A stretch of DNA of 44,168 bases from an uncultured Cocleimonas sp. (GTDB taxonomy: Bacteria; Pseudomonadota; Gammaproteobacteria; Thiotrichales; Thiotrichaceae), in contig NZ_CANLZW010000039.1 in NCBI RefSeq assembly GCF_947495625.1, positions 1 through 44,168 on the forward strand. Direction: 5' to 3'. Each line of letters begins with the position of its first letter. Within the stretch, counting starts at the first letter, position 1. Position numbers and translations under genes: made by a program. The notes under the pieces were generated by a model, which saw only the letters and a list, made by a program, of their open reading frames with translations, did no database searches and was not told where the DNA came from. Positions 3,513 to 17,912 of this stretch are shown here, piece by piece.

Positions 3513-4904
3513 ATGACTCTCGAAACTGAAACTCTGGAAAAATTATTTGCAGAACTTACTGACCTAATGGGAACACGATTTTCAACCAATCTAAGCAGTC
3601 GTGAAGTACATGGCAAAGATGAGTCCTACCATATTCCCAAGCTACCCGATGCGGTGGTTATGGTTCATAGCACCGAAGAAGTCTCGGCAATCGTAAAACT
3701 TTGTGCCAAATACCAATGCCCGGTTATTCCCTTCGGCGCAGGTACTTCTTTAGAAGGACAAGTTATCCCTGAAAGTGGGGGGGTGTCATTAGACTTCACT
3801 GAAATGAATAAAATACTGCGATTAAGCGTAGAAGATCTTGATGTCTCACTTCAGCCGGGCGTCACACGAAGACAGCTGGATACCCACCTGCGAACATCTG
3901 GATTATTTTTTCCTGTTGATCCCGGTGCAGATGCCACTTTTGGTGGAATGGCGGCTACCAGAGCATCGGGAACCAATGCTGTTCGTTACGGCACCATGCG
4001 AGAAAATGTATTGGGTTTAACCGTGGTCATGGCAGATGGCGAAATCATAAAAACCGGTGGTCGAGCACGAAAGTCATCCGCTGGTTATGATCTAACAAAA
4101 CTAATGATCGGCTCAGAAGGTACACTAGGCATCATCACCGAACTCACCGTACGTTTATATGGAAGACCAGAAGCGATGGCTGCTGCCGTATGTGATTTCG
4201 AGTCACTCGAAGGTGCGGTAAATACGGTAATCCAAACGGTACAAATGGGTATACCTATCGCAAGAATAGAGTTTCTGGATGAAGTCCAAATCGATGCAAT
4301 CAACAAATATTCACATCTAGATTACCCATTAAAACCTACCTTGTTTTTAGAATTTCATGGCACCGAGAAAGGCGTGGTAGAGCAGGCAGAAATGGTTGCT
4401 GAATTAGCCGAAGAAAATGGAGGTAATGAATTCAAATGGAGCGATAAAGAAGAAGATAAAAACAAACTCTGGCGAGCGCGACATGATGCGGCATACGCTT
4501 GTAAAGCACTGCGCCCTGGTGCCGGAATGTGGGCAACGGATGTCTGTGTGCCTGTTTCGCGGCTTGCAGAATGTATTTTAGAAACCCGAAAAGACATCGA
4601 TGAAACGGGGTTATTATCTCCTATTGTGGGTCACGTGGGCGACGGTAATTTTCATACCGTGATGTTAGTTGATACCGATAATGAAGATGAAATGAAAACA
4701 GCGATTGCCTTTAATGAACGACTTCTGGAAAGGTCATTATCCATGGGTGGGACGATTACAGGAGAACATGGCATCGGTACCGGAAAAATGGAATTTTTAC
4801 TCAAAGAACACGGTGCAGCTGTGAATGTGATGAAAACCATCAAACAGTCATTAGATCCCTTAAATATACTGAATCCTGGAAAAGTGGTGGCAATAAACAT
4901 CTAA
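3513..4904 (+). CDS. FAD-linked oxidase, D-lactate dehydrogenase / GlcD type
   Basis: About 463 residues, the usual length for the family. The PCMH-type FAD-binding domain shows FGAGTSLEGQ (residues about 70-80), then DPGADATFGGMAATRASG, YGTMREN and GSEGTLGIITE. The C-terminal cap has HVGDGNFH and the ending GEHGIGTGK ... DPLNILNPGKV of D-2-hydroxyacid dehydrogenases. It probably oxidises D-lactate, glycolate or a related 2-hydroxy acid and passes electrons to quinone or cytochrome; the substrate cannot be fixed. A GTG two codons upstream (3507) is an alternative start; neither has a strong ribosome binding site. A 16-base match to the G-tract repeat lies inside the conserved SGGVSLD coding motif (3772-3787). 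Confidence 0.9.
   Translation: MTLETETLEKLFAELTDLMGTRFSTNLSSREVHGKDESYHIPKLPDAVVMVHSTEEVSAIVKLCAKYQCPVIPFGAGTSLEGQVIPESGGVSLDFTEMNKILRLSVEDLDVSLQPGVTRRQLDTHLRTSGLFFPVDPGADATFGGMAATRASGTNAVRYGTMRENVLGLTVVMADGEIIKTGGRARKSSAGYDLTKLMIGSEGTLGIITELTVRLYGRPEAMAAAVCDFESLEGAVNTVIQTVQMGIPIARIEFLDEVQIDAINKYSHLDYPLKPTLFLEFHGTEKGVVEQAEMVAELAEENGGNEFKWSDKEEDKNKLWRARHDAAYACKALRPGAGMWATDVCVPVSRLAECILETRKDIDETGLLSPIVGHVGDGNFHTVMLVDTDNEDEMKTAIAFNERLLERSLSMGGTITGEHGIGTGKMEFLLKEHGAAVNVMKTIKQSLDPLNILNPGKVVAINI
3772..3787 (+). repeat. G-tract repeat, coding copy (AAAGTGGGGGGGTGTC)
   Basis: Copy inside the FAD oxidase gene, read as E-S-G-G-V-S (residues about 87-92). The protein motif is native to the family, so this match may have arisen by codon choice and not by insertion. 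It carries the G variant (GTGGGGGGG) seen in all coding copies. Confidence 0.5.
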
Positions 4905-4943
4905 TTACCAAAAAGGAATAGCGTAGCTGTAAAAAGTCGCTTA

Positions 4944-4961
4944 AAAGTAGGGGGGTGACTT
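4944..4961 (+). repeat. G-tract repeat (AAAGTAGGGGGGTGACTT)
   Basis: Perfect intergenic copy between the FAD oxidase and the 83-residue protein. About 30 further bases upstream (GCGTAGC ... TCGCTTA) resemble the stretch before the copy at 18282, so the repeat unit is longer than the core. Confidence 0.85.
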
Positions 4962-5005
4962 ACAAATACATAATCTAAGACATTTTTTTATATCATTGAA
5001 CAGCC

Positions 5006-5257
5006 ATGCTAATTGATAAAATTAAACAGTTCCCACTAGGTTACTCAGAAGTCTATTACCAAAATAAAAAATATGGTGTTAGTCGTAGTGAGTTTAATCA
5101 GGGTAAAAGTATCAAGCTTTATGCTAAGGAATTGGCTGGGGACGATTTTATCAGTTTAAATATATATTCAACATCTACTGCCGAAATACTCAAACCCTGC
5201 GAGATGCCAGAACATAAAGTGATCGACTTTATCAATAATTTTAGACCAATCATCTAA
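5006..5257 (+). CDS. Conserved small protein of unknown function
   Basis: An 83-residue soluble protein with the recognisable pattern YGVSRSEFNQGKSIKLYAKE, then GDDFISLNIY and a C-terminal LKPCEMPEHKVIDFI. I recall similar short proteins in other proteobacteria, sometimes labelled peptide methionine sulfoxide reductase. I see no MsrA or MsrB catalytic motif (no GCFW), so that label is not supported. A single Cys (in KPCEMPE) is the only obvious reactive residue. It is monocistronic, with a G-tract repeat 45 bases upstream of the start. Confidence 0.7.
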   Translation: MLIDKIKQFPLGYSEVYYQNKKYGVSRSEFNQGKSIKLYAKELAGDDFISLNIYSTSTAEILKPCEMPEHKVIDFINNFRPII

Positions 5258-5486
5258 CATCAGCTGTTATGTTATCTACCAAGCTGTTAGGGAGTGACAA
5301 AAGTTAACAAAAGAGTAGATATTAGTTGTCACTTTATATCGCACTTATTTTCTTCGTGTAAATATCTTATGAAAAACAGTAACTTGAAATGCCTAAAAAC
5401 TTGGCATGTAATTTGCTATGTATCAATTAATAATAAAAATAAAATGCAAAACTAAAATAATCAAAATTTATAAAGAGAGAATAAAT

Positions 5487-5960
5487 ATGAGCGCAGTAAG
5501 AAAAATAGATTTTTTATATGAAAGTGCTGAACAGGTGGAATTAGCATTTTATAAAGCGTTTGGGCAAGGTGATTTTTTATTGATGGAGTCACTTTTTGCA
5601 GATTCAGGCGTGAGTTGTACTCATCCTGGTAATTCAACGATTATAGGTCGTAAGAACGTTGTCGATAATTGGGAATTTATATTAGAAGGTATCCCTGAAA
5701 CAATCATTAATAGACAGTTATTGAGCGTGACAAAAGCCCCAGGGGTTGAAGTTCATTTGGTGCTAGAAAGTTTTGTCGCAGATGAGCTAACAGGTGAAAT
5801 GTCTGAAGTCTTTTCAACGAATGTTTATGTGCTTCAAGAGAATGGATGGCGTTTACAAATGCAACATGCCTCTTTACCTAAGCAAACTTCTTATAGTCCA
5901 GAGTTTTTCTATAACGAAAATAATGTGATGAGTTTGCAAATGAGTAATTCGTTGAATTAA
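5487..5960 (+). CDS. SnoaL-like / NTF2-fold protein (DUF4440 type)
   Basis: About 157 residues. The pattern AFYKAFGQGDFLLMESLFAD, then CTHPG and the phrase GRKNVVDNWEFIL is typical of the NTF2-like cone fold shared by SnoaL cyclases, ketosteroid isomerase and DUF4440 proteins. The late strands FSTNVYVLQENGWRLQMQHAS also fit. The fold has a hydrophobic pocket but the ligand or reaction is unknown. I start at MSAVRK (5487), which has AAGAGAGA at good spacing; the frame is open 23 codons further upstream but that part is Lys/Ile-rich and unlike the fold. It has no operon partner. Confidence 0.75.
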   Translation: MSAVRKIDFLYESAEQVELAFYKAFGQGDFLLMESLFADSGVSCTHPGNSTIIGRKNVVDNWEFILEGIPETIINRQLLSVTKAPGVEVHLVLESFVADELTGEMSEVFSTNVYVLQENGWRLQMQHASLPKQTSYSPEFFYNENNVMSLQMSNSLN

Positions 5961-6168
5961 TTTAAAATAGCTAAAAGACGAAATACCTTTGTTATAAGGT
6001 TTTATCTAAATAACTTAAAATTAGCCAATTACTCTTGATGATAACAATAGAGTTAAGAGTGATATGAAATTAATGTGTCTTTGACCTGTTAAGTAATAGG
6101 TATGTGCTCTGTATATACCTTTTGTATAAACAAGTTGTAGGAACAAGCAGAATACACCGTGTAAAATT

Positions 6169-6750
6169 TTAGTTATTCAGAGAAAACAGAATTTGTTGTA
6201 ACACAATATCTGCACTTTTAGCATCTGGATTTGTTTTCGCTAGTACACGCAAACCCCAAATACTGACCATCAAAAACTTAGCTAAATCTTCAGGGTTTCT
6301 ATTTTCTGAGATTTCACCCATTTCCTGAGCCTGTTGAAGTGCTTTGACGAGCTCATCCTCAACTGCTTGTAATTGGGTATTTGCTTTAGATTGTACTTCT
6401 TTATTGTGGGAAGACATTTCAAGCATGGTGTTGACGATTAAACAGCCGCGTTTATCAGTGCTTTTACATTTATCGACGATACTATTCAGGAAAGATTCTA
6501 TTGCTGCCAAAGGTGAATCAGACTCGTCCAAATAGTGTTTTAACTGGGCAACAGAGCGCTGTCCGTAAAACTCAAGCGTCTCTAAAAATAAACCTTCTTT
6601 GGATTTAAAAGCAGAGTAGATACTTCCGGGGTTTAATTTAGTCGATTCTACTAAATTAGGGATACTCGTCATCGAATAACCATTTTGCCAAAATGTATTC
6701 ATTGCTTTTTCAAGCACATCGTTACGATCAAATTCGATTGTCCTAGCCAT
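6169..6750 (-). CDS. TetR/AcrR family transcriptional regulator
   Basis: The N-terminal helix-turn-helix domain (residues about 5-50: FDRNDVLEKAMNTFWQNGYSMTSIPNLV and GSIYSAFKSKEGLF) is a standard TetR DNA-binding domain. The rest is the helical ligand-binding and dimer domain, with RGCLIVNTMLE as in the NemR/YxaF-like subgroup. Length (193) is usual. An AAAGGAAG ribosome binding site supports the start. It is divergent from the peroxiredoxin gene; two TTGAATG-type palindromes in the gap (6888-6903 and 6922-6937) are likely its operators, so it probably represses itself and the peroxiredoxin until a reactive electrophile or oxidant binds. The inducer is inference. Confidence 0.9.
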   Translation of the reverse strand: MARTIEFDRNDVLEKAMNTFWQNGYSMTSIPNLVESTKLNPGSIYSAFKSKEGLFLETLEFYGQRSVAQLKHYLDESDSPLAAIESFLNSIVDKCKSTDKRGCLIVNTMLEMSSHNKEVQSKANTQLQAVEDELVKALQQAQEMGEISENRNPEDLAKFLMVSIWGLRVLAKTNPDAKSADIVLQQILFSLNN

Positions 6751-6887
6751 TTCTTCCTTTGTATTCTTTGCTTAATTGTTTATCAATTTCTACTGAAAAC
6801 TTATTTTCTAAATATCGACATTATTGTGATGACAATTCGTTAATAAAACAAATCTTATAGCAAATAAAAATCTTATCAAGATATTAC

Positions 6888-8795: not shown

Positions 8796-10721
8796 ATGAA
8801 ACACAGTAGTTTTACAGGAAAACCTGAATACGCAAGCTTTGATGAGTTAGACAGATTCCTCAGTGAAGGCATTGAAAATCAGCAAAGTAAAGATCATCTG
8901 AACAAAGCACTTCAATTTGTTTATGACGTTCAGGACGAAAATGATCACCGACCGTCATCCTTGGATATAGCGTACACACTGAAAAAACTTGGCGTAGATC
9001 CACAAACCCTGATTGCGGCTTTACTGAGTGACCCGAGACTGCGCGAAAAGCTCGATCCCTTATATCTGGAAGAGCAATTTGATGAGCGAACTGCAAAGCT
9101 GGCGAATCACGTCAACTGGCTAAATACCTTCAAAGAAGCTGATCTGTCGGTAGACTATATTCCCGAGCAGGCCGAAGCATTGCGTCGTTTATTATTGGCG
9201 ACAGTTAACGATGTGCGCGCGGTATTAATCAGACTGGTATTTCGTCTACAACGCCTGCGTAAGCTCTATGAGGAAGACCCAGCAACACAGTATGCGGTTG
9301 CCAAGGAAACGCTGGATATTTTTACGCCATTGGCGAATCGACTGGGTATCGGCGAAATAAAATGGGAGATGGAAGACCTCGCATTTCGCTATTTAGAACC
9401 CGATCAATACATGGCAATTGCCAATTCGATGGATGTCAATCGCGCCAAAAGAGAAACCATCATCAATAACTTTGTTAATCAATTACAGGGTTTGCTGGCA
9501 AAGAATAATATCAAAGCTCAAGCGTATGGTCGCGCCAAGCATTTGTATAGCATCTGGAAGAAAATGCGCCGTAAAAATCAGGAATGTCACGAACTGGCTG
9601 ACCTGCTGGCAGTACGTGTTATCGTTGAAGATATTACGCAATGCTATCAGGTGTTAGGTATTGTGCATGGCTTATGGAAGCACTTGCCACAAGAATTTGA
9701 TGACTACATCGCCAACACTAAAGATAACGGATACCAGTCGATTCATACTGCGATTTTTGGCCCAGAACAGCAAATCATCGAAGTTCAGATTCGCACCAAA
9801 GATATGCAAGAATTTGCCGAACACGGTGTTGCCGCACATTGGCGCTACAAAGAAGGCAGTAACCAGGATCAGGCGATGGAAAAAACCATCGAAGCCTTGC
9901 GCGATATGTTGGAAAATCCTATTGATGACGACGCCTTGCTAGAAGAATTAAAACCCACGTTCTTTAATGATCGAGTCTATGTACTGACACCCAAAGGCAA
10001 TGTCATCGATTTACCGCAAAGAGCCACAGCGCTGGATTTTGCTTATTTCGTGCATACAGAAATAGGCAATCACTGCATTGGTGCCAAAGTCAACGGACAG
10101 CGAGTACCGTTGAGTTATCCATTAAAATCCGGCGAACGCGTTGAGATTTTAACTGATCCTGATTCGACACCTAAACTCAATTGGCTGAACCATAATAAGC
10201 GTTACGTAACCACCGGCAGAGCAAGCGCTAACATTCGTAGCTGGCTCAAAAACCATTACAAAGACACCGAATTCACCCAGTTAATTTCTAATGATAATCT
10301 CACCGGCCTCGGTAATCGCGAGGTGTTAACTGCCCCCTGTTGCCATCCACAGATAGGTGACCGAATAACAGGCGTTTACCAGCTAGATAGCACCATACAG
10401 GTGCATCGTGCAACATGCCCGAATGCCTCAAAAAGTGAACATGGACTACCGATTCTAGAACTCGAATGGGGCGAAAGAACCGACAAAATAAGACATACCA
10501 TCCACATCGAAGCATTTGATCGACAAGGATTGTTGCAGGACATTACTACTTTGCTCAATCAGTCTCAGGTCAATGTACTCAAAGCCAACACAGAAACGGA
10601 TAACGCCGATCAATCGGTAACCATGGAGCTTTTGTTAGAGCTAGAACCAGAAGATGATTTGAAGTATCTGCTGAAACGCATGGAATATATTCCGAATGTG
10701 TTTAAGGCAAATTTAGCTTAA
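8796..10721 (+). CDS. relA: (p)ppGpp synthetase RelA, shortened form
   Basis: Makes the alarmone (p)ppGpp from ATP and GTP or GDP when uncharged tRNA stalls ribosomes. The N-terminal hydrolase-like domain lacks the HD metal site (LSDPRLREKLDPLY), as in RelA. The synthetase domain shows YGRAKHLYSIWKKM (about residue 244), EFDDYIA (the EXDD motif of monofunctional RelA), GYQSIHT and EVQIRTKDM. A TGS domain (about 394-457), the Cys-rich CCHPQIGD (about 512) and a C-terminal ACT domain (about 567-641) follow. At 641 residues it is about 100 shorter than the E. coli enzyme. The loss falls between TGS and the CC motif, where the helical domain should be. No clear ribosome binding site is seen. Confidence 0.92.
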   Translation: MKHSSFTGKPEYASFDELDRFLSEGIENQQSKDHLNKALQFVYDVQDENDHRPSSLDIAYTLKKLGVDPQTLIAALLSDPRLREKLDPLYLEEQFDERTAKLANHVNWLNTFKEADLSVDYIPEQAEALRRLLLATVNDVRAVLIRLVFRLQRLRKLYEEDPATQYAVAKETLDIFTPLANRLGIGEIKWEMEDLAFRYLEPDQYMAIANSMDVNRAKRETIINNFVNQLQGLLAKNNIKAQAYGRAKHLYSIWKKMRRKNQECHELADLLAVRVIVEDITQCYQVLGIVHGLWKHLPQEFDDYIANTKDNGYQSIHTAIFGPEQQIIEVQIRTKDMQEFAEHGVAAHWRYKEGSNQDQAMEKTIEALRDMLENPIDDDALLEELKPTFFNDRVYVLTPKGNVIDLPQRATALDFAYFVHTEIGNHCIGAKVNGQRVPLSYPLKSGERVEILTDPDSTPKLNWLNHNKRYVTTGRASANIRSWLKNHYKDTEFTQLISNDNLTGLGNREVLTAPCCHPQIGDRITGVYQLDSTIQVHRATCPNASKSEHGLPILELEWGERTDKIRHTIHIEAFDRQGLLQDITTLLNQSQVNVLKANTETDNADQSVTMELLLELEPEDDLKYLLKRMEYIPNVFKANLA

Positions 10722-10765
10722 TGAGGTTTATTCTGAAGTGAGCCTAGATTGCTTAATTATCTATC

Positions 10766-11269
10766 TCAAAGTATATCCTCGATAAACCAGGCGGAAAATT
10801 CATGACGGCCATTAACGCCAGATTTTTTATAGATCGAAGACGCTTGTTGTCGAACTGTTTTTTCCTTGGTTTCTCTGATGATTGCGATTTCTTTTAGGCT
10901 AAGTCCTTTTAACAGCAACCAACCCACTTCAGTTTCACTATTCGTCAGCATCCATTCCGAAAATTGTTGAGTAATCACATTGCCTAATTTTTTACGTGCA
11001 TCAATCACATATTTTTGAGCTTTGGAATTTGTTTTGTTTGACGCTTGCAGGTCTTGGCGCAGGGAGATAATTTCTGATTTTTGCTGCTTCAAACTTATCA
11101 TTAGAAGTGCAATAGCAATCACAGAGGAAATAACCACAACAGCTTCTTTAATAATATGTTTGGTGTCAGCGCCATAGGACACATCAGCAATAAAATCAGC
11201 ACCACTGGCGAGCACAACCACGGTAAAAATAACGATTAGTAGAATTTCTTTATTATAGTTTTTAAACAC
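10766..11269 (-). CDS. Membrane-anchored LuxR-type helix-turn-helix regulator
   Basis: 167 residues. Two membrane helices (about 8-26 and 40-60) are followed by a coiled coil (KQQKSEIISLRQDLQAS). The C-terminal LuxR/GerE-type domain reads VGWLLLKGLSLKEIAIIR ... KTVRQQASSIYKKSG. The topology puts the DNA-binding domain in the cytoplasm with almost no periplasmic sensor, so it may sense the membrane or a partner protein. Divergent transcription from the cytochrome b561 gene, and a palindrome in the gap (11307-11330), suggest that this gene is its target. That link is inference. Confidence 0.78.
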   Translation of the reverse strand: MFKNYNKEILLIVIFTVVVLASGADFIADVSYGADTKHIIKEAVVVISSVIAIALLMISLKQQKSEIISLRQDLQASNKTNSKAQKYVIDARKKLGNVITQQFSEWMLTNSETEVGWLLLKGLSLKEIAIIRETKEKTVRQQASSIYKKSGVNGRHEFSAWFIEDIL

Positions 11270-12211: not shown

Positions 12212-12901
12212 ATGAATCATAAATACACACACAGATCACAACGTATTGGATGGTTACGTGCAGCCGTTCTTGGGGCGAATGATGGAATAGTGTCCACGGC
12301 GAGTCTTATTATTGGTATCGCAGCAGCAAGTACTGCGCATGAAGGCGTTCTTCTAGCAGGTGCTGCGGGTTTAGTCGCGGGCGCTATGTCCATGGCAGCT
12401 GGTGAATACGTATCTGTAAGTTCTCAGGCGGACACAGAAAACGCTGATCTTGAACTTGAAAAAAAATCATTAGAAGAAAATTATGATTTTGAAAAGAATG
12501 AACTAACAGCAATATATGAAGGAAGAGGGGTTGAGCCTCAATTAGCTAGAAAAGTAGCAGATCAGCTGATGGATTTTGATGCACTTGGCGCACATGCAAG
12601 AGATGAAATAGGTATTTCAGAGATTGTTGCTGCGCAGCCCATTCAAGCGGCGATTTCTTCGGCAGCGTCGTTTACAGTAGGTGCAGCACTTCCTTTAGGG
12701 GTTGCATGGATTGCACCTAGCAATTCTATTATTCCGCTTGTTGCGGTTTCTTCTCTGGTTTTTCTTGCCTTCCTTGGGAGTATTGCGGCGCGTGCAGGTG
12801 GTGCTTCATTAATTATCGGGGCTATTAGAGTGACATTTTGGGGAGCGCTTGCGATGGCTATAACGGCTGGCGTTGGTAGTTTGTTTGGAGTGGCAGTTTA
12901 G
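12212..12901 (+). CDS. VIT1/CCC1 family Fe2+/Mn2+ transporter
   Basis: 229 residues, five membrane helices. The opening WLRAAVLGANDGIVSTASLIIG and AGAMSMAAGEYVSVSSQ are the diagnostic motifs of the vacuolar-iron-transporter family, followed by the acidic cytoplasmic metal-binding helices (residues about 78-130, rich in Glu and Asp: LELEKKSLEENYDFEKNE). Bacterial members export or buffer iron and manganese. No Fur box was found directly upstream; a large hairpin lies about 100 bases before the start. Confidence 0.9.
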   Translation: MNHKYTHRSQRIGWLRAAVLGANDGIVSTASLIIGIAAASTAHEGVLLAGAAGLVAGAMSMAAGEYVSVSSQADTENADLELEKKSLEENYDFEKNELTAIYEGRGVEPQLARKVADQLMDFDALGAHARDEIGISEIVAAQPIQAAISSAASFTVGAALPLGVAWIAPSNSIIPLVAVSSLVFLAFLGSIAARAGGASLIIGAIRVTFWGALAMAITAGVGSLFGVAV

Positions 12902-13040
12902 TTGGATGTTTTTTTCATTAAATACACTGGAGAAGTTTTTCGTAGCTTAGGGACAATTTCATTTCTTCTAACTTTTAGTTATTGGCTACGAGTTCATTTT
13001 TTTGAACAGACAAAAAACGAACCAAAAAAATCTGCCCATA

Positions 13041-13159
13041 AAAGCACCCTGCGGGTTCACTGCGTTTCTCAGAAATAATGGGAATGAAGGGAACTCGCTC
13101 GTCCCTCACTCAAACAACCTTCATCCTGATCCATTATTTCCTGCGATACTCGTTGCTTT
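13041..13159. repeat. Large imperfect inverted repeat, MITE- or REP-like
   Basis: The left arm AGAAATAATGGGAATGAAGG (13071-13090) pairs with 13118-13142, which reads CCTTCATCC then CCATTATTTCCT. Outer arms AAAGCA (13041-13046) and TGCTTT (13154-13159) add to it. The middle (GGAACTCGCTCGTCCCTCAC) is GC-richer than its surroundings. Confidence 0.55.
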
Positions 13160-13208
13160 TGAAAGGGGGGGTAGGAAACAGTAGGTGCGGTAAAAACGTG
13201 TTTAAAAG

Positions 13209-13240
13209 TCGATTTATTACGCCGTTAGGGCGAATAAATC
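13209..13240. repeat. Hairpin CGATTTATT ... AATAAATCG
   Basis: A perfect 9-bp outer stem with an inner CGCC/GGCG stem, within the same non-coding block. Confidence 0.55.
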
Positions 13241-13323
13241 GTCTCGAAAGATCAAGAATTGATCCAAGAGGTGGTTGCAGCAAAGGGTGCTGTTTATTAG
13301 ATGGTCTGTTTAAAAAGTGAGTT

Positions 13324-13340
13324 AAAGTAGGGGGGTGACC
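13324..13340 (+). repeat. G-tract repeat (AAAGTAGGGGGGTGACC)
   Basis: Copy 9 bases from the stop of the minus-strand MOSC gene. TAGGGGGGT pairs with ACCCTCCTA just downstream (one mismatch), so here the G-tract itself is in a hairpin. Confidence 0.85.
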
Positions 13341-13348
13341 TAACCCTC

Positions 13349-13825
13349 CTAAATCGCACTAACTTCATCACCCATCCGAATTATCCCCGATTGAATAACT
13401 CTCGCATTAATCCCACCATGTCCGCGTACTGCGTTATAACCGCCGGGGCCAAATGTTTCTTCCATAAACGAACAAGGATGACAGAGTCCTGTGTATTCGA
13501 GTATCACTTCGCCGATCTGGAATTGTTTGTCTTTGAGTGCCAGTAGATTGATGCCGCTGATGCAGATATTACGGCGTAATAGAGGGGGGTCTACGGATTC
13601 TAAACCGAGTGTTGAGGCGATTACGGGTAGGTGTTCTGTCTGGATTAGGGTGACTTGTCGATTGCCTGATCTGCCAGCGTAACGATCACCTGTTAAGCCA
13701 TATTGTGTTTTGGCTTCGACGGCATCGACTATTAGCATTTCTGCGCGTCGTTCGGGGCGTACGCCTATCCATGTGACTTTGCCTTTTTGCGGGAGTGTTT
13801 TGAAGAGTATCTCGAGTGTTTTCAT
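13349..13825 (-). CDS. MOSC domain protein (molybdenum cofactor sulfurase C-terminal type)
   Basis: 158 residues making up a lone MOSC domain: VTWIGVRPERRAEM, YGLTGDRYAGRSGNRQVTLIQ, RRNICISGINL and the Cys-bearing LCHPCSFMEE, then RGHGGINARVI. Stand-alone MOSC proteins are thought to handle sulfur or molybdopterin-linked N-hydroxyl reduction; the conserved Cys is the expected reactive residue. No molybdenum genes are nearby. Its stop is next to a G-tract repeat, which may serve as part of the transcript end. Confidence 0.88.
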   Translation of the reverse strand: MKTLEILFKTLPQKGKVTWIGVRPERRAEMLIVDAVEAKTQYGLTGDRYAGRSGNRQVTLIQTEHLPVIASTLGLESVDPPLLRRNICISGINLLALKDKQFQIGEVILEYTGLCHPCSFMEETFGPGGYNAVRGHGGINARVIQSGIIRMGDEVSAI

Positions 13826-14060
13826 TTTAATAGTTTCTTAAAAAATTATGAAAAAAAAATATAGGTTAATTAGATTAGTCTTTTCATGGGGGTATCATAT
13901 GAATAAGGAAAACGGCTTTTATAATAATTTATTCTAGAAATATATGGTTATTTCATGATTAATAAAAGAAGGATAATTGTTCAATAAAATATATGTTAGT
14001 GTATGATTAATTTTATTAATTGATGTGGCAATATATGATGGAAATTAGGAAAGTAAAATA

Positions 14061-14381
14061 ATGCTAGGAAGAAAAAAAATAAATGAAGTTTTCACACCAA
14101 GAAATTCTAATGTAAATACAAATATGTATATACCTAGAGCTGTTTTAGAGCAGACATTATATCGATCAGTTTCTGGGAGTATGCATTCTTTTTTATTTGG
14201 AGCTAGTGGAAACGGAAAGTCTTGGTTGTACAAGAAAGTATTATCTGAAAAAAAATTGAATTATGTAGTTGCTAATTGTGCAAATGCTTCTAGAAAAAAA
14301 TCAATAACAAAAGAAATTGTATCTGTGTGTAAGAAGGCTGGAAGTAGCACAAAAGTTGAGCAGTCAGAAAAAATAAAGTAG
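14061..14381 (+). CDS. AAA-type ATPase, N-terminal part before a frameshift
   Basis: 106 residues encoding the P-loop half of an ATPase: SFLFGASGNGKSWLYKKVL has Walker A (GxxGxGKS). An AGGAAAG ribosome binding site precedes the ATG. The frame stops at 14381, but the same protein continues in the -1 frame (from about 14372), starting VGFNAIGKAEREYQ. The switch point is the run GAAAAAATAAAG (14367-14378). One extra A would restore a single protein of about 415 residues. The gene is much more AT-rich than its neighbours, suggesting horizontal acquisition. The break could be a real mutation, a sequencing error in an A-run, or programmed slippage. Confidence 0.7.
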   Translation: MLGRKKINEVFTPRNSNVNTNMYIPRAVLEQTLYRSVSGSMHSFLFGASGNGKSWLYKKVLSEKKLNYVVANCANASRKKSITKEIVSVCKKAGSSTKVEQSEKIK

Positions 14382-14452
14382 GTTTTAATGCTATAGGAAA
14401 AGCTGAACGAGAATATCAAAGTAATTATGAAATTCATCAGGATGATGAATTA

Positions 14453-15310
14453 TTGTCAGCGTTTAAAGCTTTAGCAAAAAACTCCTTGAAATCGAAATCA
14501 ATAATTGTATTGGATAATGTTGAAACCATATTCGAAGATCAAGATCTGATGAACGAACTGTCAGATATACTTATTCTTCTTGATGATGCTATTTATGCTA
14601 ATTTTAATGTAAAATTTTTGATTGTCGGTGTTCCATATGAGGTTTTTAAATATTTTAGCTCAGCAAAGAATACAACTTCTGTTGGGAATAGAATTGAAGA
14701 ATTACCTAGGGTTTCAGGCTTAGGTCCTTTACAGGTACTTGATTTAGTAGAACGTGGCTTTTCAAAATATCTTAAAATCAGACTAACAAAAGATCAAATT
14801 AAGGAAATCAGCAATTATACATATAATGTTACATTTGGTGTTCCTCAACGAGTGCATGAATATTGTGAAAGTTTGGCTTATGAAATTAAAGATAATAAAT
14901 GGGAATACAGTTTCCATCTTCATGAAAAAGCTGAAACATTTTGGTTACTTAAGGGTTTAAGAGAGTCCTATGCTGTAATAGATGGTCATCTAAATTCAAA
15001 TGAGACCTCTGAAGGTAGGCGCAATCAAGTAATATATGCTATAGGAAAGTCTGAGAATGATAAAATTACGACAGAGGAAATCAGTAAAATAGTAAGTAAG
15101 GAATTTCCTTTAAGTAGTCCTAGTAGTAATTCTGGAATTGGCCAAGTCCTTGCACACTTAACAAAAGGTGATACACCACTTTTATATAAAATGAATCATT
15201 CTAAATCTTATATAGTTGGTGATGCTAGATACATTATGTGTATAAGAATCATGCTTAAAAAAGATGATATGACAGAGGTTGTTATGAAAAAAGGATTTAA
15301 ACTTAATTAA
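14453..15310 (+). CDS. AAA-type ATPase, C-terminal part after a frameshift
   Basis: This frame is open from 14360; 14453 is merely the first TTG and is unlikely to be a natural start. It holds Walker B (KSIIVLDNVETI), a sensor-like strand (NVKFLIVGVP), a lid (FGVPQRVHEYCESLAYEI) and a C-terminal region of about 100 residues that could be a winged helix (TTEEISKIVSKEFPLSSPS). The layout is Orc1/Cdc6- or STAND-like, a class used in replication, transposition and phage defence. No partner gene (nuclease, protease, transposase) is adjacent, so no role is claimed. It sits as an AT-rich island between the MOSC and EamA genes. Confidence 0.65.
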   Translation: MSAFKALAKNSLKSKSIIVLDNVETIFEDQDLMNELSDILILLDDAIYANFNVKFLIVGVPYEVFKYFSSAKNTTSVGNRIEELPRVSGLGPLQVLDLVERGFSKYLKIRLTKDQIKEISNYTYNVTFGVPQRVHEYCESLAYEIKDNKWEYSFHLHEKAETFWLLKGLRESYAVIDGHLNSNETSEGRRNQVIYAIGKSENDKITTEEISKIVSKEFPLSSPSSNSGIGQVLAHLTKGDTPLLYKMNHSKSYIVGDARYIMCIRIMLKKDDMTEVVMKKGFKLN

Positions 15311-15319
15311 ACACATAAC

Positions 15320-15346
15320 AAAAAAATGCCCAAAGTATGGGGGATA
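15320..15346 (+). repeat. Decayed G-tract repeat
   Basis: A-tract, TGCCC, then AAAGTATGGGGGATAT. The leading part matches the upstream part of the coding copy at 26863-26880, so it is probably an eroded member. It lies between the ATPase and EamA stops. Confidence 0.45.
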
Positions 15347-15377
15347 TTAGATCTACAGAAATATCATTTAAATCAAT

Positions 15378-16223
15378 CTAAGTCGATAATTTCAATAAGA
15401 TCGCCCCAATCACAGTCATACTAACTACCACGACTTTGAGCCAGTTAAATTCTTCTTTCAGGAATAATACGCCGATGATTAAGGCGAAGCTGATGCTGGT
15501 TTCGCGCAGGGCGGTGACCAAGGCGACGGGTGCCTGAGTAAATGCCCAGACGACAATTGCGTAGGCGAAGAAGGTGGCATTGCCGCCGATAAAAAAGGCG
15601 GCTTTCGCTTCTTTGGGGATGCGTTTGATGAGGCCGGGTGATTGGCGTTCGGCAAGTATCGGGAAGATTAGCCCGTAACTGAGTGCGATGATGGCGTAAT
15701 AGCTGAATGCATTGTTGGCGAGTTTGGCACCTAAGGCGTCGATGATGGAATATCCGGCGATACAACAGCCCGTGATTAGCGCTAATTTAGCGGCTTGTAA
15801 GTTGCGTTTGCCATTCGATTGTTTGCCAATTGCGGTGACTAGAATCCCCAGCACTATCATGGCTATGGCAAGTACTTGTAATATGCTGAACTGCTCTCCT
15901 AAAAAGAACACTGAAAACATCGCGACAATTAATGGGCCTGAGCCTCGCGCAATGGGATAGACCTGAGTCAGATCGCCAGTTTCATAGGCGAACAGTAAGA
16001 TGAAGTGATAGGCGATTTGCACTGCGATGCTGGCGAGGATATAGCCCCAACTTTCTATCGCCGGAAAAGGAAAGATGATTAGCACAATGAGTGCAATGGG
16101 TATGCTACCCATAACCACAGCTGTCATGTTTAGGCGTTTGTCATTCCCACCTTTTACAATGGCATTCCACACTGCATGGAGTAACGCTGCTAGGATTACA
16201 GCTAAAAATACCGTAGTTGTCAT
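15378..16223 (-). CDS. EamA/DMT family transporter
   Basis: 281 residues with about ten membrane helices in two EamA repeats (first repeat from HAVWNAIVKGG, second from GCCIAGYSIIDALGAKLA). The conserved GDLTQVYPIARGSGPL and FFLGEQFSILQ phrases mark the drug/metabolite superfamily. It probably exports amino acids or metabolites; the substrate is unknown. The start is preceded by two tandem 14-base units that create two five-codon mini-ORFs, each linked by an ATGA overlap to the next start, so the true start is the third ATG of the series. Confidence 0.88.
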   Translation of the reverse strand: MTTTVFLAVILAALLHAVWNAIVKGGNDKRLNMTAVVMGSIPIALIVLIIFPFPAIESWGYILASIAVQIAYHFILLFAYETGDLTQVYPIARGSGPLIVAMFSVFFLGEQFSILQVLAIAMIVLGILVTAIGKQSNGKRNLQAAKLALITGCCIAGYSIIDALGAKLANNAFSYYAIIALSYGLIFPILAERQSPGLIKRIPKEAKAAFFIGGNATFFAYAIVVWAFTQAPVALVTALRETSISFALIIGVLFLKEEFNWLKVVVVSMTVIGAILLKLST

Positions 16224-16251
16224 GATGAGGCTGTCATGATGAGACTGTCAT
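16219..16251 (-). repeat. Tandem 14-bp duplication of the start region
   Basis: GTCATGATGAGGCT and GTCATGATGAGACT lie head to tail, then GTCAT. On the minus strand this gives ATG-ACA-GTC-TCA-TCA-TGA, then ATG-ACA-GCC-TCA-TCA-TGA, then the EamA ATG, each TGA overlapping the next ATG. Confidence 0.75.
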
Positions 16252-16340
16252 TTCGAGATTCTACTGTTTGTTATTACTTTATTAGTCTAGTTGGTTTATC
16301 TCGTTTTATTGTATCAATTTTGCTTTACCGACTTGTAACT

Positions 16341-17912
16341 TCATTGCCTTAAGAAATCCCACGCTTTATCCGATGATACTTTTCTCCAGAAAGCAGAGTA
16401 CTTTTTATGTTGTTCTGAGGTGTATAATGCAGATATTTTCCAAATGATTAACCAGTAAATAACTGAAATGATTATCGAAATACTAAACGTTTCCCATGAT
16501 TTTTCAAAAGTAGCAAAGCCAGTAGCCCAATAAAGAGCCATTCCAATAAAGAAGATATAGGATGATCTTTGGTGAATATAAGCTTTCATTTTTTCGAAAA
16601 ATGACGGCGTTTGTTTTTTCGCTTGAAATTCTTTTAACGCTTTGGAAACCTGTGCTTCTAGCGCTTCAATATCCGTCTGCAAAAATTGTACACAATATTT
16701 TTTGCTACTATCGCTGATTGTTTCTTTATCCGCACATATTGGTTTGGTGGTTATAATTTCAAAGTCTATGGGAATATTGCTGGGCGCATAACCTTCTGCA
16801 CGAGTGGCGATTCTTTCAAAAACACTGATGTGAAGTCGGGGTTTGCTCGATGTACTTGAGTATTCATCCCACAGCTTATCTATCTTGCGCAGTTTATAGG
16901 CATAATATGCAGCTAGACCCGAACGCGAATCATACATTTTATCGTTCACGTCTTTGTTTTCGGTAAATTGATCGATGTCTTCTGCAACGAATCTTAGTCC
17001 TGCTTGTTTAGCATGTAACATCATCCACTCAAGCGTATTCCATGCGATTCCTTGCCGTGGGTAACCCCCTCCTATATTGGCATGAACGCCAGAAAACCAT
17101 ACTTGTTTGATACGCTCGTGATCATTATTTTCAGGAACTTCCCGCCACAGTACGGGTTCAAACGTTCGTCGTTTATCATCAATAGAAAGTACATGGCAGG
17201 CTTTTTCAACTTTTTCATTTAGGGCGTTGTCATGTTCACGAAATGAAATGTAGAAAAATTTGTCGAGAACTTTAGCCAGTGTATCACTGGGAATTGCGTA
17301 AGCGTCTACCGTATCCCATACGCCCATAAATCGTATTTTGATATCCAGATGGATGTCTTTGGGCAGGTCTTCGACGGGATTAATTTTAGTGCTTATGGTT
17401 CGAAAGGACTTTCTGGTTTTATTCGCTAAATTGGGTTTGCTTTCAGCTTCTTCTATTTGATCATCTTTGGTTTGCTTGAGAAGTTCTTGAAATAATCGAT
17501 ACACATTTTCCACATCATTGGCCAAATCTGTATCGGACTTATTGTCATAACGCTTTCTATCGAGAATTCCACACGCCAAGATCATTCCTGCAAGAAGTCT
17601 TACTGTGTAGGCACCACGGCTAAAACCAAATAAGTAGATTTGGTCACCGGGTTCGTAGTTATTAATCAGAAAAGTATAAAGTTCTTTGATGGTGCGTTTG
17701 AGTCCATAGCCAAAAGCACCTCCAATTATTTTCAGTATTTTCTTATCCTGGGTGCCAACCCCATCATGATAAAAGGCGACTTGACGCTTGTTGTTTTCAA
17801 CTGTTAAATGGCTTTGCCTATCAATTGCAGTGTGTAATCGCCAGACATTGGTACCATGCCCAACGCCTCCAGCACTTCCGGTTCCATCTGTAGATAAAAT
17901 AATATTTTTCAT
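16341..17912 (-). CDS. DUF2235 lipase-like protein with C-terminal membrane helices
   Basis: 523 residues. The N-terminal DUF2235 alpha/beta-hydrolase domain opens IILSTDGTGS and has the nucleophile elbow GFSRGAYTVRLLAG (GxSxG, serine near residue 97), MGVWDTVDAY (acid) and WFSGVHANIGGGYP (histidine). DUF2235 includes Tle1-type phospholipase effectors of type VI secretion. Here a C-terminal region adds two membrane helices (SSYIFFIGMALYWATGF and ISIIISVIYWLIIW), so this copy is more likely membrane-bound than secreted. No VgrG, immunity or secretion genes are nearby. It is monocistronic; the native substrate is unknown. Confidence 0.82.
   Translation of the reverse strand: MKNIILSTDGTGSAGGVGHGTNVWRLHTAIDRQSHLTVENNKRQVAFYHDGVGTQDKKILKIIGGAFGYGLKRTIKELYTFLINNYEPGDQIYLFGFSRGAYTVRLLAGMILACGILDRKRYDNKSDTDLANDVENVYRLFQELLKQTKDDQIEEAESKPNLANKTRKSFRTISTKINPVEDLPKDIHLDIKIRFMGVWDTVDAYAIPSDTLAKVLDKFFYISFREHDNALNEKVEKACHVLSIDDKRRTFEPVLWREVPENNDHERIKQVWFSGVHANIGGGYPRQGIAWNTLEWMMLHAKQAGLRFVAEDIDQFTENKDVNDKMYDSRSGLAAYYAYKLRKIDKLWDEYSSTSSKPRLHISVFERIATRAEGYAPSNIPIDFEIITTKPICADKETISDSSKKYCVQFLQTDIEALEAQVSKALKEFQAKKQTPSFFEKMKAYIHQRSSYIFFIGMALYWATGFATFEKSWETFSISIIISVIYWLIIWKISALYTSEQHKKYSAFWRKVSSDKAWDFLRQ

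Follow-up and report, generated by a model that had tools for sequence, protein, structure and literature searches.

A split AAA+ ATPase gene between two host genes of an uncultured Cocleimonas sp., probably a young pseudogene of a lone ORC/Cdc6-like family

The window, by which we mean the whole stretch of 44,168 nucleotides that was analysed, carries between a MOSC-domain gene and an EamA-family transporter gene a segment that has no counterpart in a second genome of the same genus (G003). The segment holds one gene, for an AAA+ ATPase, which is read in two frames. The features of this locus are as follows.

13349-13825, minus strand: MOSC-domain protein, the left host flank (PF03473, 6.2e-16); it adjoins EamA in L010
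13829-15364, no strand: DNA without counterpart in G003; the foreign part probably ends near 15319
14061-15310, plus strand: AAA+ ATPase gene, 416 codons when read across one -1 frame break
14061-14381, plus strand: 5′ open frame of 106 aa with Walker A (ORF list, Pfam AAA_22, PADLOC PDC-S59)
14368-14373, plus strand: A6 run, the site of the frame change; it aligns to the disordered linker (pLDDT < 50, residues 99-125) of the L012 model
14372-15310, plus strand: 3′ open frame of 312 aa with Walker B and the C-terminal region
15313-15319, plus strand: ACATAAC, 2 nt past the stop; resembles the R″ box with which the attC sites in the host's own integron begin; may be chance
15319-15345, minus strand: copy of a host repeat, with a hairpin and T-run seen by eye; probable EamA terminator
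15378-16223, minus strand: EamA-family transporter, the right host flank (PF00892, 7.8e-19)

The 5′ frame runs from an ATG at 14061 to a TAG at 14379-14381 and contains the Walker A motif GASGNGKS (14199-14222). The -1 frame opens just before 14372, ends with a TAA at 15308-15310 and contains the Walker B motif IIVLDN (about 14501-14518). The first-pass annotation had described this arrangement, joined at the A6 run, as one protein of about 415 residues, and both points hold: reading through GAAAAAATAAAG (14367-14378) gives 416 residues, and since intact proteins of other species align with these along the full length, the best, that of Thalassomonas sp. RHCl1 (L012), with 59% identity, the single-gene reading is not due to chance. 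Outside the break in the A-run the gene is free of lesions. The first listed start of the 3′ frame is a TTG at 14453, about 70 nt beyond the stop of the 5′ frame, and its use would not bring back Walker A. The 5′ half matches Pfam AAA_22 at E 4e-4, which is under that model's cut-off, and PADLOC PDC-S59 at E 5.8e-10, and the 3′ half (from 14453) matched zero Pfam, NCBIfam or PADLOC models at E up to 1, its sole matches being two PHROGs at E 0.1-0.3. The distinct composition pointed out earlier is also real, with a gene GC of 30.6% against about 40% in the surroundings (0.29 for the island) and a third-codon-position GC of 0.19 in each half against 0.28-0.55 in five neighbours.

In G003 the EamA gene directly neighbours the MOSC gene at a distance of 76 bp, and the alignment with that genome ends at 13828 and restarts at 15365, so that 1,536 bp here stand against 59 bp there. 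Compared with this one same-genus genome, the ATPase gene is a solo insert, about 1.5 kb long, between the two host genes. The segment at 15319-15345 is probably the EamA terminator and host DNA (a pattern scan for terminators listed none there), and the foreign part would therefore end within about 10 bases of the ATPase stop. We found no convincing transposon ends around the insert, and Rfam gave no match at the gathering threshold in 12800-16600. A dispersed repeat of about 30 bp, consisting of an A-run, GCCC, about 8 nt, a G-run and TG, occurs in the window at 15319-15345 and at about 13310-13340. The A-run with GCCC has 31 matches in 467 kb (both strands), of which 14 also have the G-run, and the element resembles a terminator-type repeat that belongs to the host genus. 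Adjoining EamA on its other side is a gene for a DUF2235/Tle1-like hydrolase (16341-17912, minus strand; PF09994, 2.8e-72).

The ATPase gene occurs once in the window's own genome. It was found in none of the 38 other relatives' genomes searched, the own genome being the sole match of 39, and a sample of 274 genomes of the class, searched with the C-terminal part, again gave the own genome and none of the 273 others. A motif-based search yielded a set of 46 relatives, 41 on genome contigs, three on viral contigs and two on plasmids. The viral contigs gave no relative when the C-terminal part alone was the query and the three when the alignment was used; phage records gave none. Most relatives come from Gamma-, Beta- and Alphaproteobacteria, and further ones from two cyanobacterial MAGs and a Hydrogenedentota MAG, the last cut by a contig end; the copies in Cohnella and Vallitalea are broken or partial. 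The Thalassomonas protein is the sister of the window protein (SH-aLRT 100) in the family tree, which was built by a quick method and has long branches (L005, L038, L045). When homologues were compared for an intact frame, as had been proposed, 37 of the 46 loci had a single unbroken frame of at least 375 aa (L026, counted among them, ends about 40 residues early). One locus, L032, is cut by a contig end and the remaining eight are broken or fragmentary. Intact copies thus exist, and gene loss is frequent in the family. Seven relatives have breaks elsewhere than the window copy, given here in window codons and listed together with the fragment L049.

L031: break at about codons 141-146
L046: break at about codons 131-138, with the C-terminal piece about 1.4 kb further on
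L044: break, a stop, at codons 197-225
L047: break at codons 222-239
L048: break at codons 277-279
L050: break from about codons 111-129 on (first stop; place unsure)
L052: a remnant; L049: a fragment

The first-pass annotation had allowed for programmed frameshifting or polymerase slippage beside simple decay, and it is the latter that our comparison favours. The zero frame at the break is GAA AAA ATA AAG, in which the Lys codon AAA within A6 could re-pair one base back, and both halves are open, so -1 ribosomal frameshifting or transcript slippage could in principle yield from one gene both a short protein with Walker A and the complete ATPase. Canonical -1 slippery sites follow the heptamer rule X XXY YYZ; at the A-run no such heptamer lies in frame, the next codon being ATA. 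The RNA downstream has an ordinary fold (z -0.68; 45 of 200 shuffled sequences were equally stable in a test of pseudoknot-free folds), an A6 or longer run lies near the aligned codon in only 3 of the 37 intact relatives, and no relative is clearly broken at codon 104 of the window (the place in L050 being unsure). Programmed frameshifting was rejected on these grounds, namely the lack of conservation of the site, of a canonical heptamer and of an unusual downstream fold, and we regard it as highly improbable.

One observation on the other side concerns the places of the breaks. Codon 104 of the window aligns into residues 99-125 of the L012 model, the sole segment with pLDDT under 50, so that the break lies inside a disordered linker that joins the Walker A and Walker B parts. 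Of the eight located breaks four, the window's own among them, lie within codons 104-146, either in this linker or a little beyond it. Counting relatives only, the figure is three of seven (L031, L046 and L050, at about codons 111-146). This cluster is not predicted by pure-chance decay and is the one hint of a special region; a tolerant, AT-rich linker may be the explanation. Because the breaks differ in place, and because L046 is additionally split, a shared recoding site is not the best reading.

Two other explanations of the break were considered. The first is that it is a sequencing or assembly error and that the genome contains an intact functional gene, as would fit a homopolymer, the usual place for such errors, in a gene whose remainder is without lesions. 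The break, however, affects one of the shortest among the gene's seven A-runs of six or more, the A8, A8 and A7 runs being unbroken. Assembly quality was checked by comparing 576 open frames of at least 150 aa from 0.8 Mb of G003 with 0.47 Mb of the window genome (window included). Two further host genes that were flagged proved to be end effects against the ORF table, and none of 69 host orthologues (72 kb, in which 139 homopolymers reach a length of six or above) had a frame break, for which reason we give a real lesion the better odds and consider a sequencing error unlikely. The second is reversible phase variation, in which slippage in the A-run toggles the gene between cells. A homopolymer inside a costly, possibly defence-related gene would suit such a switch, but an A6 run is short for slippage-based phase variation, longer runs are present elsewhere in the gene, and the run is missing in most relatives, which led us to reject this candidate; it is marginally less probable still than programmed frameshifting. 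Simple decay is thus a better reading than programmed frameshifting, and assembly error is less likely than decay. The window copy is probably a young pseudogene that has presumably lost its function, and the frame break itself would be ordinary, most likely the mark of a young loss, with no new kind of decoding behind it.

The AlphaFold2 model of the intact relative L012 (mean pLDDT 86.2, pTM 0.82) predicts an ORC1/Cdc6-like AAA+ core followed by a C-terminal winged-helix-like region. Its best solved matches are 2qen (Z 18.9), 2fna (17.3) and archaeal Cdc6/Orc1 (17-18). In the alignment of 36 members (A2) the Walker A motif G-x-S-G-x-G-K-[ST] and the Walker B motif hhhh[DE]N-x-E are conserved, and AAA_22 was found in all 36; with both motifs on an AAA+ fold, the family is one of AAA+ ATPases. 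The nSTAND1 model matches 27 of the 36 members at E 0.01 or better, with a best E of 3.9e-6, and the one member shown scores 16.6 bits against a cut-off of 27.1. A profile search of PDB sequences gave weak matches, mostly to the Walker A region, including ORC5 at E 0.17. The earlier description of the protein as an ORC/STAND-like AAA ATPase with a flavour of defence or mobile elements agrees in outline with our results.

The family shares the AAA+ core and the C-terminal winged-helix-like region with ORC1/Cdc6 and with the archaeal STAND-type ATPases (2qen PABY2304, 2fna SSO1545, 1fnn Cdc6). The top archaeal chains align at VIA-align Z 17-19 over 315-345 residues, with 13-17% identity and an rmsd of 7-11 A, and because of these last two values the domain orientation would differ from that of the archaeal ATPases. 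Against both groups the family is further set apart by its Walker B, hhhhDN-x-E, and by being a lone bacterial gene. The AAA+ cores of TnsC and MuB also superpose (Z 15-16.5, rmsd 3.2-4.4 A over 230-259 residues), but the family has an extra C-terminal region and is without recurrent transposase genes alongside.

The nearest model among predicted defence families is PDC-S59, whose profile of 428 positions is similar in length to the family and shares with it the N-terminal part with Walker A. All 36 members of the alignment match it, with a best E of 2e-13. The read-through window protein covers only positions 3-115 of the 428 (E 5e-11), however, and the Thalassomonas protein 4-111; since the match is confined to the first quarter of the profile, the family would be a sister of PDC-S59 and not a member. 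PDC models are described as predictions by guilt-by-embedding that are not validated (PMC10855318). A literature search on PDC-S59 found no paper.

How such a gene might travel alone is suggested by several of the relatives. The copies in Thauera (L013) and Alcanivorax (L014) are 86% identical, with the homology bounded at -64/-65 and +8/+11, and no further common DNA was found between these two or among three Pseudomonas copies in the stretches compared. The Alcanivorax locus has an integron integrase about 640 bp upstream of the gene. In a gene cassette, the R″ box that follows the gene is complementary to the cassette's own 5′ end. At five of 46 loci (L012, L014, L017, L018 and L020) a heptamer 2-3 nt past the stop matches exactly, as reverse complement, a heptamer GTTAGAT or GTTAGTT that lies 32-64 nt before the start; complementarity of 7/7 occurs in shuffles at these loci with a frequency of 0.010-0.030 per locus. 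L013, L014, L017, L018 and L020 have an attC-like fold that starts at the final base of the stop or up to 3 nt beyond it. Both signs are thus found together in L014, L017, L018 and L020, the ends alone in L012 and the fold alone in L013, and these six copies, which include the nearest relative of the window gene, look like integron gene cassettes.

A strict attC consensus scan reached its threshold in 0 of 44 copies, and the assignment as cassettes therefore rests on position and complementary ends. A loose, fold-based attC scan, whose rule was set only after the strict scan had failed, was passed by 8 of 46 copies, the window copy being one of the 46 and giving no match, against 2.7 expected from shuffles, and by 13 of 303 control genes; L030, L037 and L055 pass it with a fold that starts further from the stop and were not counted as cassettes. 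An integron integrase scores above the cut-off in 11 of the 39 genomes or records searched, and in the DNA around family genes a close match to the Alcanivorax integrase was found at the Alcanivorax locus itself only. The copies of three Pseudomonas species (L023, L024 and L025) have 85-88% DNA identity in differing surroundings, with common edges near -75/-80 and no more than 9 nt from the stop codon, and no attC-like fold.

A different setting recurs in Alphaproteobacteria. At nine loci identified by neighbour clustering, and at L045 by a DNA match, lepA, as labelled from reading of the protein sequence, is followed at once or after a short distance by the gene or its remnant, and the gap is about 0 to 594 bp in nine measured loci. 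The lepA loci are L033, L035, L038, L040, L042, L045, L047, L048, L050 and L052, of which four (L047, L048, L050, L052) are decayed. Since the Ruegeria copy L042 lies inside a clade found elsewhere, at least two changes fall on starred branches of the tree, and on the quick tree a recurrent lepA-downstream site with at least two origins can be proposed provisionally. Four other copies (L016, L019, L022 and L054) are near a umuC-like gene, and Pfam IMS was found in 3 of the 133 neighbours scanned. These 133 were taken from 145 frames of at least 130 aa within three of the gene (L032, L049 and L052 left out) after eight lepA copies, one lepA-antisense frame (L045) and three very long frames had been dropped.

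The neighbours were also scanned for defence genes, in line with the suggestion that the gene be looked for in defence islands. Some neighbours at other loci, a minority, match restriction systems, dGTPase or other PADLOC models; these are one or two members each of the 133, counted among 25 of 100 matching families and given with no background rate.

The host of the window copy has an integron of its own. In the window genome an intact integron integrase lies at C28:2341-3273 (421 bits against a cut-off of 265), attC repeats occur on contigs C28 and C10 beside nine ORFs of 24-34% GC, a composition close to that of the window gene, and an integrase over the cut-off was found in 7 of 11 other same-genus genomes. 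The integron is split over two contig ends, C28:1300-3279 and C10:1500-4750 (L064, L069), and its AT-rich ORFs carry closely similar attC sites. The R″-like heptamer past the stop of the window gene has a 6/7 match to a site 114 nt upstream (shuffle P 0.245) and lies at the edge of the host repeat; a comparable AT-rich stretch leads into one of the copies of that repeat. A likeness of 13 bases between the 3′ edge of the window copy and the start of one host attC is not claimed, as the host repeat makes chance possible. The window copy is set apart from an integron cassette by its lack of an attC and its place outside any array: no attC-like fold was found in the 170 nt past the stop, and in the strict scan, where it was the only copy with a candidate (score 15, threshold 18), the candidate ends inside the EamA gene. 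Cassettes are known to insert at attG sites as well, outside integrons (Loot 2024, as cited in PMC12444791). That the window copy came out of the host's integron is in our estimate about as probable as that it did not.

We therefore consider it probable, taking the explanation as a whole, that a foreign one-gene ATPase was inserted between two host genes, that intact members of its family are likely sensors and that this copy is a pseudogene. The unit of spread in this family would be the single gene, which takes the form of an integron cassette in six species, lies next to lepA in Alphaproteobacteria and is also carried by virus contigs and plasmids. ATPases of the ORC/Cdc6, TnsC and MuB types are known for ATP-controlled assembly on DNA or partners. 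An intact member would most likely be a one-protein, nucleotide-switched sensor whose ATP-driven assembly on DNA or on a partner may lead to an anti-phage or anti-plasmid response. In the window copy, the break in the disordered linker parts Walker A from Walker B and would leave no complete ATPase.

An anti-phage function of the intact family is plausible, with a likelihood that we put slightly short of even. The defence reading is suggested by the distant likeness to PDC-S59, the patchy spread as a single gene, the frequent loss and the carriage by integrons. Integrons are reported to hold phage-defence cassettes, at least 16 of 179 cassettes in V. cholerae and 9 of 57 tested in V. parahaemolyticus, in PMC12409362, which cites Darracq 2025, Kieffer 2025 and Getz 2025 for such cassettes. 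Like these, copies of the family have one gene, short flanks and an attC-like site at the stop or matching ends. Against defence stand the lack of a known effector domain and the fact that a transposition-helper role fits the fold equally well. Our literature search found no experiment or paper on defence by the ATPase family, and none on an AAA ATPase with a gene cassette, attC or integron.

The transposition-helper possibility takes its fullest form in the proposal that the intact family is a target-site or replication ATPase of the TnsC/MuB/ORC kind, a solo gene that aids mobile elements and has its partner elsewhere. It would accommodate the presence of TnsC and MuB among the close folds, of members on virus contigs and plasmids, and of repeated sites beside lepA. 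However, no recurrent transposase or replication gene lies alongside: a DDE transposase domain was found in 3 of 133 neighbours, and no cluster of flanking genes common to three or more loci is plainly of either kind. The mobility of six loci is, moreover, already explained by cassette carriage, and we regard this proposal as rather unlikely. Our tentative proposal, which we hold to be possible more than probable, returns to the defence reading: a so far undescribed, lone ORC/Cdc6-like AAA+ family would act as a self-contained anti-phage protein, portable as a single gene (in Gamma- and Betaproteobacteria as an integron cassette, in Alphaproteobacteria at a recurrent site just past lepA, and on virus contigs) and often lost by frame breaks as costly. 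If intact members do protect against phages, a replication-initiator-like ATPase would join the small one-gene defences that integrons carry. The family is in any case more interesting intact, in other species, than as this probably dead copy, and with intact relatives present in cultured strains, phage protection is directly testable.

Two loci among the relatives have neighbours that we record separately. On virus contig L053 a family member is accompanied 3 kb away by a related ATPase (5056-6342 and 9679-11004), and the gene at 9679-11004 is probably a strong PDC-S59 match (E 5e-78). On the Tritonibacter plasmid p2 (L005) a dGTPase-like gene, probably a match to the PADLOC dGTPase model, lies just upstream of the family member (3952-5232 and 5545-6792), and phage-like genes were seen by eye near the two.
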